Shown piece by piece: positions 5,089 to 18,643 of a stretch of DNA of 64,000 bases. Source of the DNA: Pseudomonas paralcaligenes (lineage in GTDB: Bacteria > Pseudomonadota > Gammaproteobacteria > Pseudomonadales > Pseudomonadaceae). The DNA is taken from the NCBI RefSeq assembly GCF_019655855.1, contig NZ_BPFX01000020.1, forward strand, positions 1 to 64,000, written 5' to 3'. The position numbers and the translations under genes were made by a program. The number at the start of each line of letters is the position of its first letter. Position 1 is the stretch's first letter. The notes beneath the pieces are model-generated. The model was not told where the DNA came from, did no database searches, and was given only the letters and a program-made list of their open reading frames with translations.

Positions 5089-5355
5089 TCAGGCGTCGTC
5101 GTCGGTGGCGGCGTCCAGCTCGGCGAGGGCGTCCGGCTGGTTCTTGAAGGCCTTGGCGAAGGTGTCGCGGTTCTTCGCCATGAAGATGCCCAGCTCCTCC
5201 ACCTGTTCCTCGCTGAGCGAGGGCACCGCCTTGTGCAGGGCTTCGGACAGGGCCTCGGCCAGTTCCAGCATCTTGTCGTAACGATCGGCTTCGGCCTTAT
5301 CCATGAACAGGCGCTCCGGATCGCGACTGCTGCGGTACACCACTTCGACGGCCAT
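5089..5355 (-). CDS. yebG: YebG-family SOS-inducible protein
   Basis: 88-aa protein beginning MAVEVVYRSSRDPERLFMDK, with the conserved DKAEADRYDKMLELAE segment typical of YebG, a small LexA-controlled protein of unclear biochemical function that is induced by DNA damage. A LexA-box-like sequence lies at 5388-5403, 33 bp upstream of the start, which agrees with SOS control. The C-terminus is acidic (DAATDDDA). Monocistronic by context. Confidence 0.85.
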   Translation of the reverse strand: MAVEVVYRSSRDPERLFMDKAEADRYDKMLELAEALSEALHKAVPSLSEEQVEELGIFMAKNRDTFAKAFKNQPDALAELDAATDDDA

Positions 5356-5403: not shown

Positions 5404-5776
5404 TATTCCATCGGCCCATGTCGACGCAAGCGGCACCGCTTCCAAGGAAGGATTGCCGCCATGCCGGCTGGCCTTCATCCTGCATAGCCGTTGTCATGCG
5501 AGTGGTCCAGCATGGACCTGTTCTGTCGAAGGAGTGAGATGGTGGATTTCAAGCGAGTCGATGCCCTGCGGGGCGGTATGCATGCCCTGGCCCAGTCGTT
5601 CGGCAACCTGCTGGTGGAGGCCTTCCACTACATGGCGCTGTTCGGCATCGGCGGCATCACCGCCTGGGCGTCGGTGGTGACCTTCCTCGGCATGCTGGAC
5701 AAGGGGCATGTCACTGTCGACGACATCCTCCTGCTGTTCATCTACCTGGAGCTGGGGGCCATGGTCGGCATCTACT

Positions 5777-5786
5777 TCAAGACCAA
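5777..5786. repeat. 10-bp target-site duplication, left copy
   Basis: TCAAGACCAA, immediately outside the left inverted repeat of the element; identical to 9237-9246. Flanking bases differ on both sides, so the repeat is exactly 10 bp. In the uninterrupted gene it encodes part of the FKTN codons. Confidence 0.85.
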
Positions 5787-5803
5787 CCAACCGTATCTAA
5801 CAC
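5787..5803. repeat. left terminal inverted repeat of the element
   Basis: CCAACCGTATCTAACAC. Aligned without gaps to the inverted right end (CCAATGAGTCCTAACAC), the outer CCAA and the inner CTAACAC are identical and the six bases between differ: 11 of 17 matches. It abuts the 10-bp direct repeat with no spacer. Confidence 0.7.
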
Positions 5804-5873
5804 AAGTTTTTTCGCGGCCTGCAGGGTGGCAAGCCTAGCTATCACTGTGTCTGGATTGATGGAGTAAGTGAGC

Positions 5874-6347
5874 ATGAAGTTGGTAGATAGCAGCCGCAAA
5901 CGTATGCATGACGGGGCCAATTCGATTGGTAACCTGATGGTGGAAGGCTTCCATTATTTGGGCCTTTTTGCCATTGGAGCGGCCACGGCATGGGCCTCTG
6001 TGATGGCCTTTATGGGGATGGTTGAAAAAGGCCAAGCAAACATTGATGACATTCTCTTGCTCTTCATTTATCTAGAACTGGGAGCAATGGTAGGCATCTA
6101 CTTTAAAACAAATCACCTTCCTATCCGTTTTTTGCTCTACATAGCGATAACGGCTCTTACGCGATATCTGATTGGTGATGTATCGCATCATAAAGCCCCG
6201 GATGTTGGTCTGCTGTATCTGTGTGGCGGAATATTTTTGCTGTCGCTATCTGTTTTGGCTGTCAGGATTGCCTCAAATAAATTTCCTTCCAGTAAGGCGA
6301 TGGATGCGACGGGGGATGTGGTTGGTGATAGTGCTGGAGAAAAATAA
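5874..6347 (+). CDS. psiE: PsiE-family membrane protein carried by the element (rescue copy)
   Basis: 157-aa full-length PsiE homologue. It has the same architecture as the broken host gene (four predicted hydrophobic segments; shared HYLGLFAIGAATAWASV-like, DDILLLFIYLELGAMVGIYFKTNH and YIAITALTR blocks) but is clearly diverged in sequence and AT-richer. GTG at 5868 is an alternative start; ATG 5874 has GGAG 9 bp upstream. It lies 35 bp after the stop of the truncated host frame and in the same direction, so the host psiE promoter can transcribe it. PsiE is an inner-membrane protein linked to phosphate starvation in E. coli; its biochemical role is unknown. The conserved target gene riding inside the element that breaks it suggests functional replacement. 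Confidence 0.88.
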   Translation: MKLVDSSRKRMHDGANSIGNLMVEGFHYLGLFAIGAATAWASVMAFMGMVEKGQANIDDILLLFIYLELGAMVGIYFKTNHLPIRFLLYIAITALTRYLIGDVSHHKAPDVGLLYLCGGIFLLSLSVLAVRIASNKFPSSKAMDATGDVVGDSAGEK

Positions 6348-6418
6348 ATTGGTGCGGGATAAAGATAAGTTCGAAGATAATGGCTCGTGGTTTTGAGTCG
6401 CCTTGGTACTCAGGAGGG

Positions 6419-6445
6419 GCGAGCAGTGCTGAAAGCATTGCTCGC
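6419..6445. terminator. hairpin between convergent psiE copy and minus-strand operon
   Basis: A 12-bp stem (GCGAGCAGTGCT / AGCATTGCTCGC, one G-T position) closes on a GAA loop, centred between the two convergent stops at 6347 and 6469. There is no strong T-run, so bidirectional termination or mRNA end protection is a guess. Confidence 0.45.
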
Positions 6446-6468
6446 GAACATGCTGCGAATATAATTTT

Positions 6469-7452
6469 CTAAATTATGAGCTCACGCCATAGAACTTGCT
6501 TTGAACTAAGCTTTTCTCTTTCGCTAAAGCGTGTTTCGGAAATGTGCTTTAGAGAAAAGCTGGTCATGGGAGAGGGGTGGTTTTCAAAAATCTGCATCCC
6601 GAGCCCTATTTCGCAAACGTGTGAGTCGAAGCGAATGAAGCGTTCATGTGCATAGTCTCTGAAAAAGCTATCATGATTAGATATCAGTGTCAGGCTATTC
6701 AATACTTTTGCTAATGGGGGGCAATTTGCAATATTTACATTAAAGTAGTTTGTTATTTCATGGTAGGCGGTGCTGTTTTTTTCGTCACCCCCAGAAATTA
6801 TTGTGACGCTAAACTTTTTATCGCTATTAGCAAGCATCCTTAAGAAACCTAAGGCCCCTGAGGCTGTCTGGCCACGTCCAAGGCTTTCGCGAATACGAGT
6901 GTATGAGTAGCGATCAATTATAGTTATGTTTTTAGAGTATTTAGCCAGAGGGGCTATTTTTTCTGACCAGATGGCTTGAGCGTTGCTGCCAAAGGGGATG
7001 TCCGACCGTCCCGCGGTGCGACTAGCTTTAAAATTTACTGACTCGCTAGCAGCTCCGGCTCCTAATAACTCAAATCCGGTAGTGGTGCAATGCCTGACTG
7101 AGTCTTCGCTGTTGGAAAGAATTTTGCTTATTTCGTCATCCGCCAAAGCTGTTTTAAATATTTGGCATAGTGTTGTTAGTTTTGAAAAATCCTCATAGTC
7201 ACAAAAGTCATTCCATTCATTATCAACTATTGAGGTTCGGTAGTACTCAAGAGCTTCTTTCCAGCGTTGATGGTATTTTACTGGGAATTTTTTAATTAAA
7301 TCCAAAAGGCTGTCGAACTTGTCGGCGTTTGAAATTAAAACTCCATGATCCCGCCAAAGCTGAAGTATGGTGTCGTGGGCTGCACTTTGGCCTGCAGTGT
7401 TTAGGGTTTTGGAGTCAAAAAAATGAGTATCAAAGGCGAATTCGGTAATCAT
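6469..7452 (-). CDS. unknown protein of the element operon, C-terminal MIT_C/PLD-like region
   Basis: 327-aa protein, AT-rich codon use, no signal peptide or membrane segment. I do not recognise the whole protein. The segment from about residue 195 (KNITIIDRY) to 325 has the order seen in MIT_C-type phospholipase-D-like domains: a hydrophobic strand ending in D-R-Y, an alpha/beta stretch with FSVTIISGG, then AHERFIRFD followed by GLGMQIF, comparable to the family's HDR...GRGLD-type end. HERFIRFD fits an HxRxxxxD variant of the HKD motif. It starts 3 bp after the ATPase stop, with GGAGA upstream, so the genes are co-transcribed. As partner of a DUF3696-type ATPase on a mobile element it is a plausible anti-phage effector; that function is inferred. 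Confidence 0.7.
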   Translation of the reverse strand: MITEFAFDTHFFDSKTLNTAGQSAAHDTILQLWRDHGVLISNADKFDSLLDLIKKFPVKYHQRWKEALEYYRTSIVDNEWNDFCDYEDFSKLTTLCQIFKTALADDEISKILSNSEDSVRHCTTTGFELLGAGAASESVNFKASRTAGRSDIPFGSNAQAIWSEKIAPLAKYSKNITIIDRYSYTRIRESLGRGQTASGALGFLRMLANSDKKFSVTIISGGDEKNSTAYHEITNYFNVNIANCPPLAKVLNSLTLISNHDSFFRDYAHERFIRFDSHVCEIGLGMQIFENHPSPMTSFSLKHISETRFSEREKLSSKQVLWRELII

Positions 7453-7455
7453 TTT

Positions 7456-8145
7456 TTATCTCCGAGTCCTTTTTTCTCTTATGCGTTCCTCAAAGAATCC
7501 ATCAGGGAACTCTCTACAAAAATCTCCTTCGTCATCTAATGGGATGCTAATTATCACCCCGCCGTCACTTGTGGGTTCTACATAATTTATGCTGATTTGG
7601 TCTTTTTTTAAGCCTTGATAGACTCTGCTTTGAAGGCGAAGTAGCAACGACTCGCTATGAGTTTCTATGATCCATTGGTTGGTTTTAGATGTTTCAATTA
7701 TGAAGTCTGCTAAGTGTGCTTGCAAACGAGGGTGTAGGTGGATTTCGGGTTGCTCAACGCAGATTATACTATTTTTGCGGACAATTCCCTCGACGATTAT
7801 CGGTAGCATTTGGCCAATTCCGAAGCCGACGTCTGAGGGGCCGACGACAATATTGGAGCGAGTGTCTCTTAGTTGAAGGCAGATAACGGTTCCGGTTACG
7901 TTGTCACCAATACTTCTTGCGGAAAGTTCATAAGGTATTTCAAATTTCTCAAACCAAGAGTTAATTTTTTCTGTTATTTCAGGTGATTGCTCGTATATAA
8001 AGCGAGCAACGTTTTCACCTAATTTCCCGACGGAATCATTTTGATCTCCTTTGGGAGCATAGAAACGACTGGGATGGCTACGCAAAGGCCCGAGATACGT
8101 TACTGCTGAGAATTTCTCTTTTAAATCGCTTGCTGTCTCTCCCAT
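7456..8145 (-). CDS. AAA ATPase, C-terminal part with DUF3696 (second frame of split gene)
   Basis: 229-aa frame holding the second half of a chromosome-segregation/OLD-like ATPase: LGPLRSHPSRFY; a signature-like GPSDVGFGIGQMLPI; Walker B SIICVEQPEIHLHPRLQ; the ETHSE histidine switch; and a DUF3696-like tail (FCREFPDGFFEERI). The P-loop is in the upstream frame at 8121-8879. This frame is shifted -1 relative to it and overlaps it by 25 bp, with ATG 8145 inside the end of the upstream frame and no convincing ribosome-binding site. Options are a frameshift mutation or sequence error, translational coupling to make two polypeptides, or programmed frameshifting; no classical slippery heptamer is visible. 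ATP hydrolysis would need both parts. Confidence 0.82.
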   Translation of the reverse strand: MGETASDLKEKFSAVTYLGPLRSHPSRFYAPKGDQNDSVGKLGENVARFIYEQSPEITEKINSWFEKFEIPYELSARSIGDNVTGTVICLQLRDTRSNIVVGPSDVGFGIGQMLPIIVEGIVRKNSIICVEQPEIHLHPRLQAHLADFIIETSKTNQWIIETHSESLLLRLQSRVYQGLKKDQISINYVEPTSDGGVIISIPLDDEGDFCREFPDGFFEERIREKRTRR

Positions 8146-8879
8146 GGTGTGATTGAGATTATTCCGCTAGGCATGGAGAGCCCTAGGCTGGGCTTTATGT
8201 CGGCGACTGCCATGCAAGGAGTTGAAAAGTTTAGGTCTGTTTGAAACTCTGTTTTTTGAAGAGCCTTTTTTATTTCCTCAGTTTCTATTTTTCCCCAGGT
8301 TCTCACTCTTCGCTCTATGTAGTCCGCAACAGTATCCTCTGTAAGCAGGGAGAATTTTTGGGCGTTGGACAGCCTCTTAAGCAGCGAGTCTTTATTTTTT
8401 TCTCGCAAGTTGGACTTTAGTGCGGCATGAAATATCGGGGCTTTCTTTTCGTTGGTTATTGTTATTTCTATTCTTTTTAGATACGAGAATCCTTCGTATG
8501 TACTGTTGTTCCCCGTTCCAGAGTAGGCATACTCTAGTTCATAGCTTCGTAAGTGGCTGCTGCCGAAAGAGCTTGATCTGGCTTCTTGAGGGTTGTTCTT
8601 TTTGGAAGATGTGTATGAAATGCGAAAGCCTATTTCTTTTGATATGTCATGCTCGTTTACCATTGATGAGTAGTCGCCAAGGTCTACATATTCACCGTTT
8701 GAAACTAGTCCGCCTTGTGTGCTTGGTCTGGTTAATGATTGTTTTAAGAGCATGATGGAGTGAATTATGGAGCTCTTCCCTGAAGAGTTTGGGCCATAAA
8801 CAAGTGTTATAGGGGCGAGCGTTAAAGATTGCCAGTCAGAGAAAGCTTTGAAATTTTTTATATCGATTGTGGTAAACAT
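8121..8879 (-). CDS. AAA ATPase, N-terminal part with Walker A (first frame of split gene)
   Basis: 252-aa frame, first gene of the element's minus-strand operon. The N-terminus has IDIKNFKAFSDWQSL and Walker A GPNSSGKSS (about residues 28-36), then the Q-loop-like IMLLKQSL, as in single-domain ABC/OLD-like ATPases. The last eight or so residues (PWERQQAI) look out of frame: at GIISIT the alignment should continue into MGETASDL... and YLGPLRSHP of the next frame. The start is ATG 8879 with GGGAG upstream; TTG 8882 is also open. A TGATGTC direct repeat lies at 8904-8921 just upstream. DUF3696-type ATPases commonly pair with an effector in phage-defence modules; here the partner is 6469-7452. 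Confidence 0.82.
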   Translation of the reverse strand: MFTTIDIKNFKAFSDWQSLTLAPITLVYGPNSSGKSSIIHSIMLLKQSLTRPSTQGGLVSNGEYVDLGDYSSMVNEHDISKEIGFRISYTSSKKNNPQEARSSSFGSSHLRSYELEYAYSGTGNNSTYEGFSYLKRIEITITNEKKAPIFHAALKSNLREKNKDSLLKRLSNAQKFSLLTEDTVADYIERRVRTWGKIETEEIKKALQKTEFQTDLNFSTPCMAVADIKPSLGLSMPSGIISITPWERQQAI

Positions 8880-9236
8880 CAATTGAACTCCCGTCCATGA
8901 GCGTGATGTCTTAATGATGTCATAGTCACTTCTTCAGACGCCACTGCTGTAGGTGTACAACGGCTTCGAAAGCATTTGGCTGAGCTCTGCTGGAATGGGT
9001 TACCTCAATCCACAACGAATTGTGCCGACTAACACGAAAAGGGTTGTGGTCTGTTGGCTGGTAAGTCCGGTTTCTCTGAAAGACGGGAGGTCGCCACAGT
9101 CTTGTAGGGCTCGGCGTTGAGACCGGTGTGCAATGATGAACACTCCCAGTTTCCACGTTAGGCGAGAGCTTCTCTTGACATATGTGGCTAGGTTGGGAGC
9201 TGGGTTTCCAAGAGGCAGAGTGTTAGGACTCATTGG
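8880..9236. other. right-end non-coding region of the element, with putative operon control site
   Basis: 357 bp between the ATPase start and the right inverted repeat. Small frames here lack start signals and domain features, so I do not call genes. TGATGTC occurs twice as a direct repeat one helical turn apart (8904-8910, 8915-8921), a possible operator for the ATPase operon. A further CTAACAC, the inner block of the terminal repeat, occurs inverted relative to the right end at 9029-9035. No transposase remnant was recognised. Confidence 0.45.
9220..9236. repeat. right terminal inverted repeat of the element
   Basis: GTGTTAGGACTCATTGG, the imperfect inverse of 5787-5803 (GTGTTAG-N6-TTGG). 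It abuts the right copy of the 10-bp direct repeat. Confidence 0.7.
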
Positions 9237-9246
9237 TCAAGACCAA
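9237..9246. repeat. 10-bp target-site duplication, right copy
   Basis: TCAAGACCAA, identical to 5777-5786 and directly outside the right inverted repeat. After it the host psiE codons resume in register. Confidence 0.85.
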
Positions 9247-9469
9247 TCACATGCCGGTGCGCTTCCTGATCTACGTGGCGATCACCGCGCTGACCCGCCT
9301 GCTGATCTCCGACGTGTCGCACCACAACGGGCCGGGCCTGGGCGTGGTGTACGTTTCCGGCGCGATCCTGCTGCTGGCGATGGCGATCCTAGTGGTGCGC
9401 TTCGCCTCGTCGCGCTTCCCGTCGGTGCAGGTGCCCGCCCGCGCCGTCCGGGACCCGGAAGAAGGGTGA
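9247..9469 (+). pseudogene. psiE: psiE, 3' fragment
   Basis: Encodes the last 73 residues of the interrupted host PsiE protein (HMPVRFLIYVAITALTR, DVSHHNGPGLG, then the last hydrophobic segment) in GC-rich host codons. A GTG at 9233 could open a short frame across the junction, but without the first half of the protein it is unlikely to function. The ECF sigma gene starts 99 bp further on. Confidence 0.9.
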
Positions 9470-16144: not shown

Positions 16145-18643
16145 TCAGAAGTCGAGGGTATAGCTCAGGCTGTAGGTGCGGCCACGGCCCTTGTAGTCGA
16201 ACATCTCCACCGGCGCGAGGGCGCCGTAGAACACCTGGGCGCGCTGGCCCCAGACTGAGGTGTAGTCCTTGTCCAGCAGGTTCTGGATGCCGAAGTTCAG
16301 GGTGCCCACCGGCAGGGCGTGGCTGCCCAGCACGTCGAAGGTGGCGTAGCCATCGATCTTCTGGTCGTTCTCGTCGCTCAGGTTGAAGGTGCGCACGGCC
16401 TGCAGGCGCAGGCTGGTGACGCCGTCCTGCCAGCCGACGAAGGCGGTGGCCTTGGAGGGGCTGCCGGCGGTGACATCCTGCTTCACCCAGCGCTCGTCGC
16501 TCTTCTGCTGCGAACGGATGGCCAGGGCGCTGGCGCCGACCTGCCACTGCTCGCCCAGCCAGTAGCTGAACTGGCCTTCCAGGCCGTAGTTGCGCTTCTT
16601 GTCATCCAGTTGCTCGACCAGCAGGCTGGTGCGGTTGTAGGTGATGCTCTTGTCCGACCAGGCGTAGAAGGCGGCCAGCTGGGCGTCCAGGCCGTCCGCG
16701 TAGTGGCGCCAGCCGAACTCGACCTGCTTGGTCTTGATCCCGTCCAGCGCCGAGTCCTCGACGTTGACGCCCTGGTTCAGGCGCCAGTGGCTGCCGACCA
16801 GGGTGTAGCTGCCCTGGCCATAGTACTTGGCCGGGTCGGGCAGCTCGAAGCCCTCGGAGTAGTTGGCCCATACCTGCTGCGCCTTGTTCAGCTTGTAGAC
16901 CAGGCCGAGGTTGTAGAGGTCGACGTCGTATTCCTTCTCGCCGCCGGGAATCGCGTCGGCGCTGCTGCCGATGCCCTTGCTGATGGAGATCTGCTGGGTC
17001 GCGGCGACGAAGTCGCCGACGTCGGTGGTGATCTCCTGGCGGCGCCAGCCGCCGGACAGGGTCAGGTCGTCGGTGATCTTCCAGCTGAGCTGGGCAAAGG
17101 CGGACTGGCTGTCGGTGTCGATGCCCGGGTAGCGGCCGACGCGGGCGTAGCGGTCGGCGACCAGGCCGCCGCTGGAGGCGGCCTGGCCCAGGTCGAACAT
17201 GCTCTGGCTGGAGTCGAAGTTCTCCCACTCCAGGTCGACGCCGTAGTTCAGGCTGACACGTTCCCACTCCTTCACCAGCACGGCCTTGAGGCCGTAGTAG
17301 TCGGTGTCCTGCTGCGAAGCGGAGTAGTAGGACTGCAGCGGGTTGACCGCGCCGGTGCCGGTGAAGCGCACGGAGGGGAAGGGCTGGAAGGCCATCTTCT
17401 CGCTGCGGTAGTAGCCCTGCAGGTAGACGTCGTGACCGAGCACCTCGGGGATGTGGTAGGTGGCGTTGTACTGCTGGCGCTCGGTGCGCGGTTCGAGGTC
17501 GTAGCTGGCGCCGTCGCGGATGTCGAAGTCGCTGGCGCCGGTCAGGGCCTGGAAGTTGTCGCCGAGGAACAGGCCCTTGTCGCCGTCGTAGCCGGAGTCG
17601 TACCACTGCATGCCCAGGCTCAGGCTGTGCTGGTTGGGCAGCAGGATGTCCAGGCTGCCCATGATGTCGACGGAGCGGTTGTACTGTAGGTCGGTCTGGG
17701 TGATGTCCAGCAGCACCTGGTCGCCGTTGCCGTCGTAGGCCGCGCCGTTGCGCTGGTAGGCCACGGCCAGGCGGCCGTTGACGGTCTCGCTGCCGCCGCC
17801 GACCGACTGCGCCACGCGCCAGTCCACGTCGTCGCTCTGGCGCAGGCCGCTGCGCACGCCCACCTCGCTGGAGAAATGGGCCGGGCCGGATTCGCCCTTC
17901 CTGGTGACGATGTTGATGATGCCGCCGGTGGCGCCGCCGCCGTATACCGCGCTGGCGCCGGAGAGCACTTCGATGCGCTCGATGTTGAACGGGTCGATGG
18001 AGTCGAACTGGCGGCTGATGCCGCGGGAGCTGTTCAGCGACACGCCGTCGATCATCACCAGGGCGCTGCGCCCGCGCAGGTTCTGGCCGTAGTTGGTGCG
18101 CCCCTGCGGGCCGATGTCGAGGCCGGGGATCAGCTGGCCCAGGGCTTCCTTGAGCGGCACGCCGGCCTTGGTCTGCTCCTGCAGCTGGGCACTGCCGATG
18201 ACCCACACGGTGCCGGGCAGCTCGCTGATACTGGTCGGCGCGCGCGAGCCGATCACCACTTGGCGGTCGATCTCCAGGCCCACGCCGGCCAGTTGCAGGG
18301 TGTAGCCGCTGCCGCCGGAGACAGCGCGCAGGCCGCTGCCTTCCAGCAGCGCGGCGAGGCCGTCGGCGACGCCGTATTCGCCGTTCAGGCCTCGGGTGGT
18401 GCGGCCGGAGGTCAGGTCGGTGCTGAACGAAAGCAGCACGCCGGCCTGTTCGCCGAACTGGTTGAGCGCACTTTCCAGGTCGCCGGCGGGAATCTGGAAC
18501 GACTGGCGGCTTTCCTGCTGGCTGGCGGCGACGGCGGGCAGGGCCGGCGCCAGGCCGGCGGCGAGGCCCAGGCCGAGGATCAGGGGCTGCAGGGCGCGGC
18601 CGAGCGGCGCGCGGGCGAACGGGGCGAGACGGAGTGGACGCAT
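16145..18643 (-). CDS. TonB-dependent receptor with STN domain, IutA/ChtA-like (unit 2)
   Basis: 832-aa outer-membrane receptor. A signal peptide (ending ALPAVAA, about residue 40) precedes an STN domain (FQIPAGDLESALNQFGEQAGVLLSF). The plug closely follows the aerobactin receptor IutA: EALGQLIPGLDIGPQGRTNY, LRGRSALVMIDGVSLNSSRG, RQFDSIDPFNIERIEVLSGA and AVYGGGATGGIINIVTRKG. It ends YSLSYTLDF. The probable ligand is a citrate-hydroxamate siderophore (aerobactin, schizokinen, rhizobactin); this follows from family resemblance only. ATG 18643 is preferred over TTG 18658. It is the last gene of a sigma-FecR-receptor unit read leftwards, 96 bp after fecR. A 20-bp-period direct repeat lies in that gap. 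Confidence 0.88.
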   Translation of the reverse strand: MRPLRLAPFARAPLGRALQPLILGLGLAAGLAPALPAVAASQQESRQSFQIPAGDLESALNQFGEQAGVLLSFSTDLTSGRTTRGLNGEYGVADGLAALLEGSGLRAVSGGSGYTLQLAGVGLEIDRQVVIGSRAPTSISELPGTVWVIGSAQLQEQTKAGVPLKEALGQLIPGLDIGPQGRTNYGQNLRGRSALVMIDGVSLNSSRGISRQFDSIDPFNIERIEVLSGASAVYGGGATGGIINIVTRKGESGPAHFSSEVGVRSGLRQSDDVDWRVAQSVGGGSETVNGRLAVAYQRNGAAYDGNGDQVLLDITQTDLQYNRSVDIMGSLDILLPNQHSLSLGMQWYDSGYDGDKGLFLGDNFQALTGASDFDIRDGASYDLEPRTERQQYNATYHIPEVLGHDVYLQGYYRSEKMAFQPFPSVRFTGTGAVNPLQSYYSASQQDTDYYGLKAVLVKEWERVSLNYGVDLEWENFDSSQSMFDLGQAASSGGLVADRYARVGRYPGIDTDSQSAFAQLSWKITDDLTLSGGWRRQEITTDVGDFVAATQQISISKGIGSSADAIPGGEKEYDVDLYNLGLVYKLNKAQQVWANYSEGFELPDPAKYYGQGSYTLVGSHWRLNQGVNVEDSALDGIKTKQVEFGWRHYADGLDAQLAAFYAWSDKSITYNRTSLLVEQLDDKKRNYGLEGQFSYWLGEQWQVGASALAIRSQQKSDERWVKQDVTAGSPSKATAFVGWQDGVTSLRLQAVRTFNLSDENDQKIDGYATFDVLGSHALPVGTLNFGIQNLLDKDYTSVWGQRAQVFYGALAPVEMFDYKGRGRTYSLSYTLDF

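Follow-up and report, generated by a model that had tools for sequence, protein, structure and literature searches.

An island family at one codon of psiE in Pseudomonas, each member with a complete psiE of its own and two with a large serine recombinase

What kind of element cuts a host gene in two and at the same time brings in a complete copy of that gene? The question is raised by a 64,000-nucleotide stretch of Pseudomonas paralcaligenes DNA (NCBI RefSeq assembly GCF_019655855.1, contig NZ_BPFX01000020.1, positions 1 to 64,000 of the forward strand; hereafter the window), in which psiE is split by an insert at 5787-9246 that carries an intact psiE. Islands at the same insertion point were found in other Pseudomonas genomes. 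They share a psiE of their own, which is under purifying selection, and differ in their cargo; two of them encode a large serine recombinase (LSR) next to their right end. We regard the window insert as very probably a recombinase-less member of a Pseudomonas island family that is integrated by an LSR at a single attB in psiE (core TCAAGAC) and provides a replacement psiE.

The insert in psiE and its recurrence

The insert is bounded by a perfect 10-bp direct repeat, TCAAGACCAA, at 5777-5786 and 9237-9246. These are the only two copies in that direction in the window, and a single reverse copy lies at 16728. The insert measures 3460 bp and has a GC content of 0.44, against 0.68 in the remaining window. 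Removal of 5787-9246 joins 5539-5786 to 9247-9469 and gives 471 bp with one stop-free PsiE translation. The inner ends read CCAACCGTATCTAACAC and, inverted, CCAATGAGTCCTAACAC, and are identical at 11 of 17 positions; this is only moderately above chance, since among 2000 random pairs drawn from this element 54 do equally well. An initial annotation of the locus had described the repeat, the inverted inner ends, the restoration of psiE by excision, the intact psiE inside the element and the AT-rich insert between GC-rich flanks. All of these are borne out, with the inverted ends tempered by the control just given, whereas its length of 3450 bp has to be corrected to the measured 3460 bp. Matches to psiE in the window's genome are limited to three pieces, namely the two host parts and the element copy. 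The features of the locus are as follows.

5539..5786, + strand: 5' part of host psiE, codons 1-83, cut by the insert; translation matches residues 1-80 of the element copy at 68%
5777..5803, + strand: attL, left junction; core TCAAGAC(CAA) at 5777-5786, then the element arm ending in CTAACAC at 5797-5803; the CTAACA spacing recurs in 11/11 islands
5874..6347, + strand: complete psiE borne by the element, GGAG ahead of the ATG; PF06146, E 2.7e-21; low dN/dS
6469..7452, - strand: p327, a cargo protein of no assigned family; Pfam, PADLOC and NCBIfam gave no match within the limits applied
7456..8145, - strand: C-terminal piece of an AAA (ABC-type) ATPase, in a frame different from the N-terminal piece; AAA_15/AAA_21; PADLOC PDC-M55A 2.7e-38, NsnB 4.8e-37, HEC-03B 1.9e-30
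8121..8882, - strand: N-terminal piece of the AAA ATPase; AAA_15 profile positions 1-172, PADLOC NsnB 1-125
9220..9246, + strand: attR, right junction, by direct reading; arm GTGTTAG at 9220-9226, 10 nt, core TCAAGAC(CAA) at 9237-9246
9237..9469, + strand: 3' part of host psiE, from open reading frame and translation; 58% match to residues 75-140 of the element copy
5089..5355, - strand: yebG, left neighbour of psiE in the flank outside the element; PF07130, E 4.9e-27

Twelve Pseudomonas genomes turned out to contain an interrupted psiE 3' half. Eleven of 398 were recovered by one pattern, a psiE 3' half in which the base before the core differs from the T of the intact gene: G000 (the window's genome), G104, G287, G380, G363, G295, G067, G194, G013, G304 and G351. 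The pattern is blind to right ends with a T before the core. G282, which was reached through a search for recombinases, is such a case, and the number of occupied genomes is thus at least 12. The G194 island is truncated by a contig start, and both junctions are visible in the other 11 of the 12. All 11 islands, the window's included, cut psiE at the identical codon; because the insert recurs at the same codon in 11 genomes, we take the observation to be real. In each of the 11, joining the flanks gives an open psiE frame, a complete psiE follows the left end in the direction of the host gene, and yebG lies upstream of psiE. Measured from core to core, the islands span 2123, 2829, 3460, 4032, 4414, 5189, 5360, 5676, 6782, 11847 and 86793 bp. 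Their GC content is 0.385-0.466 versus 0.58-0.68 in the flanks (ten islands, counted without G282 and the partial G194).

Searches with the ends gave fewer psiE loci. With up to 3 mismatches, the right end matched in 14 of the 398 genus genomes, and in three of these (the window, G363 and G380) the match lies in psiE; a scan of the collection returned two records, Pseudomonas sp. CC6-YY-74 and Pseudomonas benzenivorans DSM 8628. Of 397 genomes, 191 had a match to the left-end pattern when 2 mismatches were allowed; a reversed-pattern control looked similar by eye. Exact matches to the left-end pattern among the matches listed were G104 and G287, and the left-end search added G104. The initial annotation had expected empty psiE sites in relatives, and these exist: psiE is uninterrupted in 15 of the 29 relatives examined, and the contrary outcome, in which none would be, did not occur. 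All 15 are among the 19 same-genus genomes, the window's counted; the remaining four are the window's, the occupied G013, G001 and G014. What stands of that annotation's main proposal is a discrete mobile element in psiE with its own psiE; a transposon identity is not supported, as discussed below.

Island ends and serine recombinases

The core TCAAGAC is shared by attL and attR at the same codon in 11/11 islands and sits at the Phe-Lys-Thr codons of psiE. The flanking repeat that contains it varies in length (7, 7, 7, 8, 10, 10, 11, 12, 13, 15 and 15 bp); in the four islands with 7, 7, 7 and 8 bp the left copy is TCAAGACGAA. G380, G067, G304 and G282 read TCAAGACG on the left side and TCAAGACC on the right, and this difference shows that the bases after the core derive from the element. 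On the left, CTAACA stands 13-14 nt past the 7-bp core in all 11 islands, in arms of two kinds, with CCAA or CGAA after TCAAGA. On the right, GTGTTAG is found in the window, G363 and G287, which retain both arms, and GTGTTAA in G380. The tips adjoining the repeat are not conserved among islands. When the inverted pairing of the ends was compared with 2000 controls each, 5 were as good in G363, 57 in G282 and 67 in G287, beside the 54 of the window. The reading that fits the ends best is attL and attR, produced by a serine integrase that has its attB inside psiE. In the window, the would-be attP has its arms GTGTTAG and CTAACAC 30 bp from each other, and these arms could represent the outer portions of two half-sites; an attP half-site of 25 bp recognised by two domains has been described (PMC3783163, drawn on here, like the papers below, for part of its content).

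Two islands encode a candidate enzyme. In the 11.8-kb island of G295, a 580-aa protein begins ~60 bp from the right core and contains Resolvase, Recombinase and Zn-ribbon domains; a MobA/VirD2-type relaxase and MobC are encoded as well. This island has both features that mark an integrative and mobilizable element (IME), a relaxase and an integrase of its own; the window element has neither. The 86.8-kb island of G282 codes for a 581-aa LSR with the same three domains, starting ~40 bp from the right core and about 50% identical to that of G295 (49% by BLAST, 51% in the recombinase search). Its further genes include ParA-, UmuC-, LigD- and ArdC-like genes, a D12 methylase and a weak relaxase match. 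An LSR beside the right core is the layout expected for a large serine integrase adjoining its attP. Scans of the window element against Pfam, PADLOC and NCBIfam matched no transposase or recombinase.

The G295 recombinase is at least 97% identical to proteins filed under P. lactis, P. tolaasii, P. rhodesiae, P. veronii, P. paracarnis and P. fluorescens. LSR matches were present in 30 of 368 genomes; surroundings were opened for G295 and four others, with one in psiE and three in comM. The comM islands of G072, G200 and G254 (L132, L133 and L134) encode a related LSR, MobA and MobC. L132 (G072) shows comM broken into three and contains two serine recombinases that differ from each other. Outside the chromosomes, relatives of the LSR were limited to 24-30% matches among the best 15 of 17 plasmid and 10 of 17 phage records, there were none in viral contigs, and a Rep-like protein of the G295 island had no match in plasmids.

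The carried psiE copy and the cargo

At the protein level, 30-41% of residues are different between the psiE copies and the host protein; GC at third codon positions is 0.35-0.49 in the copies versus 0.76-0.92 in host psiE. In a tree of 26 PsiE proteins the copies form three clades: the window with G013, G287 and G295; G104 with G351; and G363, on a long branch, with G380, G067, G304 and G282. The tree needs three label changes between host and island, two of them forced by well-supported branches, and one copy clade adjoins an intact host gene (G007). Taken together, these results show that psiE was taken up at least twice. Among related copies, dN/dS was 0.04-0.12 in 8 of 10 pairs, rough values with several dS above 1; the other two pairs gave no finite dS. 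The copies are thus under purifying selection. The joined host psiE also has low dN/dS (<0.4 in 10/10 pairs), which is uninformative on relaxed selection.

In the window's genome the element copy is the only complete psiE found, and it would serve as the replacement for the gene broken by the island. The copies have also lost the host codon at the core: AAG for the core Lys is kept in 0/11 copies, with AAA in ten and CGC in one. This recoding hints only faintly at self-protection of the copy, because the other Lys codons of the copies also favour AAA (53 AAA, 21 AAG) and the copies form three clades.

Outside bacterial chromosomes, a tblastn search with the psiE copy gave no match of at least 60% identity in plasmids (19 records) or phages (4 records). 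In viral contigs, an attP-like pattern matched at 9 loci, which had no PsiE match in the DNA fetched and are read as chance, and the right-end pattern gave 0 matches. Two psiE-site patterns matched 36 loci in IMG/VR viral contigs (L062-L097), 31 of them with a one-piece PsiE match of 89-152 residues; none of the 36 has element ends at psiE. One of these contigs, L073, resembles a prophage beside host psiE. An uninterrupted psiE was also seen in Pseudomonas phage Y12 (OQ572413.1, an unverified record; L029, 8001-8453); its flanks look chromosomal by eye, and it may be host DNA.

The cargo between the ends differs from island to island. In the window it consists of the split AAA ATPase, which matches the candidate anti-phage ATPases NsnB, HEC-03B and PDC-M55A, and p327 (327 aa), for which 20 proteins were found at E<=1e-5, itself included. 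The ATPase gene changes frame at 8121-8145 and was searched as two pieces; it may be a pseudogene or reflect an assembly error. G363 carries an ABC ATPase with AriAB/PtuA-like matches, G380 a type II methyltransferase, G304 PDC-M01A/B (PtuA-like), and G104 and G351 have a PDC-M18A-like protein in common. The cargo of G287 is a reverse transcriptase-protease (RT-Protease_XI, E 1e-175) and a 372-aa protein. In the P. benzenivorans island (L019, 2334-5448) this enzyme is a fusion of reverse transcriptase and trypsin, with the 372-aa protein behind it. The sole cargo of G013 is a homologue of that 372-aa protein, without the fusion. PADLOC matches were obtained in 6 of the 8 islands scanned (the window, G363, G287, G380, G304 and G104) and for neither of the single proteins scanned from G067 and G351; the scan covered the islands other than G013, G295 and G282. 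The 372-aa protein of G287 (Pfam, PADLOC) and a 552-aa protein of G067 had no match in the libraries run. Judged by these family matches, the cargo probably consists of anti-phage genes, and its role would be defence.

The content of the slot seems to be renewed both module by module and through stacked insertions. Right-hand modules are common to pairs of islands (G287-G013, 1547 bp at 85%; G104-G351, 1880 bp at 87%; G194-G304, 2754 bp at 89%), and the middles differ within the G287-G013 and G104-G351 pairs. Near the right end of the G380 island (L017, 16597-16670), a 75-bp fragment of a psiE copy from another island type, 85% identical to the window's, is probably the remnant of a stacked insertion. 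Ahead of this fragment lies an open reading frame that we take to be of IS30 type and a later insertion.

Competing explanations, related systems and meaning

One competitor is an IS4-like DDE transposon, a kind named in the initial annotation, that has short inverted repeats at its termini and duplicates 10 bp of target; its transposase would be lost or supplied in trans. The window does show short inverted ends with an 11/17 match and a perfect 10-bp repeat, as such transposons do. However, this reading needs a near-constant target duplication and fails because repeats of 7-15 bp are observed, all at one identical site; the tips are not conserved, no transposase is matched in the window element, and two members have a serine recombinase. 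The varying repeat lengths and unconserved tips largely refute the transposon, which we consider very improbable. The annotation's own alternative, a short recombinase core, pointed in the right direction, given the LSR beside the right end in two relatives. A tyrosine-recombinase island with a 7-bp overlap, in which the serine recombinases would be unrelated passengers, has in its favour that 7 bp is a usual size for the core shared by tyrosine integrases. Against it, the LSR adjoins the right core in both members that have one, and inspection by eye of the islands' open reading frames, which were scanned against libraries in part (for G282, 10 of 35 long frames against Pfam), revealed no tyrosine recombinase. 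There is very little chance that this is the correct account.

Several results weigh against LSR-driven integration with a replacement gene. The window's genome has no LSR match at E<=1e-3, and the cassette therefore cannot move itself now. An LSR is present in only 2 of the 11 fully seen islands, and remnants in the others are at chance level (best E 0.86). Right arms are not conserved: end pairing is weak in G295, itself an LSR carrier (131 of 2000 controls as good), G380 (230) and G104 (269), and at chance level in G013 (637), G351 (1406), G304 (1443) and G067 (1891). The fetched stretches of the three related LSR islands contain no complete comM, so that carriage of the target gene goes with psiE and not with the enzyme. 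Finally, psiE is cargo of the TLPQC locus in P. aeruginosa clone C despite a core psiE (PMC7685784). That psiE is likewise ordinary hitch-hiking cargo here, and not a replacement, would also fit its presence on TLPQC-1 in Salmonella (PMC5347186) and the 30-41% divergence from the host protein. We nevertheless consider it improbable: the copy occurs in 11/11 islands at the same place and in the same orientation, was acquired at least twice and is under purifying selection, and no second whole psiE was found in the genome of the window. A stronger competitor, though still an unlikely one, is that the islands now spread only by homologous recombination through their psiE/yebG flanks (by transformation or transduction), the LSR being ancestral and irrelevant to the small forms. 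The 9 of 11 fully seen islands without an LSR, several right arms that appear decayed, and the right-hand modules shared by species pairs at 85-89% DNA identity around different middles are as it would predict, but the psiE copies fall into three clades and the left arms into two kinds, which points to insertion on several separate occasions, and the window, G363 and G287 retain both arms.

We therefore return to integration by an LSR. In a circular form, the right arm would be linked through the core to the left arm, making up an imperfectly palindromic attP, and recombination with the psiE attB would produce attL (psiE 5' part and left arm) and attR (right arm and psiE 3' part). Integration would halve psiE, and the complete diverged psiE by the left end, in the same direction, would leave the host one whole psiE; the island would carry this gene because integration cuts psiE in two. 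The islands with an LSR, of 11.8 kb with a relaxase and of 86.8 kb, would be the likely movers. The small islands (2.1-6.8 kb, the window's included) would have kept ends and psiE with probable anti-phage genes between. We predict that the LSR catalyses integration and that the small forms are mobilised in trans. More tentatively, and with the chances somewhat against the combination as a whole, the small islands may be satellite-like minimal cassettes, made up of two att ends, a replacement gene and exchangeable anti-phage genes without a recombinase, that are moved in trans by the serine integrases of the larger psiE islands. As part of that combined proposal, insertion would be nearly free of cost, the recoded core would spare the copy as a second target, and hosts would have supplied the replacement repeatedly.

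The closest precedent is RME, the recA genomic island of Vibrio cholerae S24 (PMC4405046). It too lies inside a conserved gene, one end holding a complete but diverged version of that gene and the other an integrase, and has 9-bp inverted repeats, lower GC and a restriction enzyme in its cargo; its authors state that the island's own recA copy offsets the disruption. Insertion in a gene together with a complete copy of that gene is found in 11/11 psiE islands. Unlike these, RME targets recA and has a phage integrase and an XerS-type recombinase but no LSR; it is one 32.8-kb island, and the portion of the paper drawn on does not mention recombinase-less relatives. Serine-recombinase IMEs (PMC5704250) share the serine recombinase, very short direct repeats in attL and attR, insertion within a gene and, with G295, a relaxase. 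They disrupt genes that the host can dispense with, and in the same limited portion of text a replacement gene goes unmentioned. The Pseudomonas comM islands L132-L134 resemble the psiE islands in MobA, MobC and the related LSR (~40% over its length) but differ in their target and in the missing complete comM noted above (3/3).

Among systems that carry defence or stress genes, the core defence hotspots cDHS1/2 of P. aeruginosa (PMC10250203) likewise hold changing anti-phage genes at a fixed chromosomal place, but are bordered by core genes next to tRNA or tmRNA and have no single type of mover; psiE has 0 occurrences in the main text of that paper. The TLPQC stress-tolerance locus (PMC7685784, PMC5347186) is mobile and carries a psiE-family gene, but in the sections drawn on is not described as inserted in psiE, its psiE being one of many protein-quality-control genes beside a core psiE. 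For the terms searched, no open-access paper on psiE as an integration site was found among the matches listed. Beside the RME precedent, the psiE family is new in its serine integrase, its spread over many Pseudomonas hosts, a replacement gene acquired more than once and defence cassettes that lack a recombinase.

For work on psiE itself, the islands call for caution, as psiE trees can mix host and island lineages. They also offer a pair of serine integrases with a predicted attB common to many Pseudomonas, and a bounded slot for new anti-phage genes, with p327 next to its ATPase and two further proteins, of 372 aa in G287 and of 552 aa in G067, as candidates. The family seems to repair the damage to its target with its own copy, which would make an element's cost of landing in a gene testable in one system.

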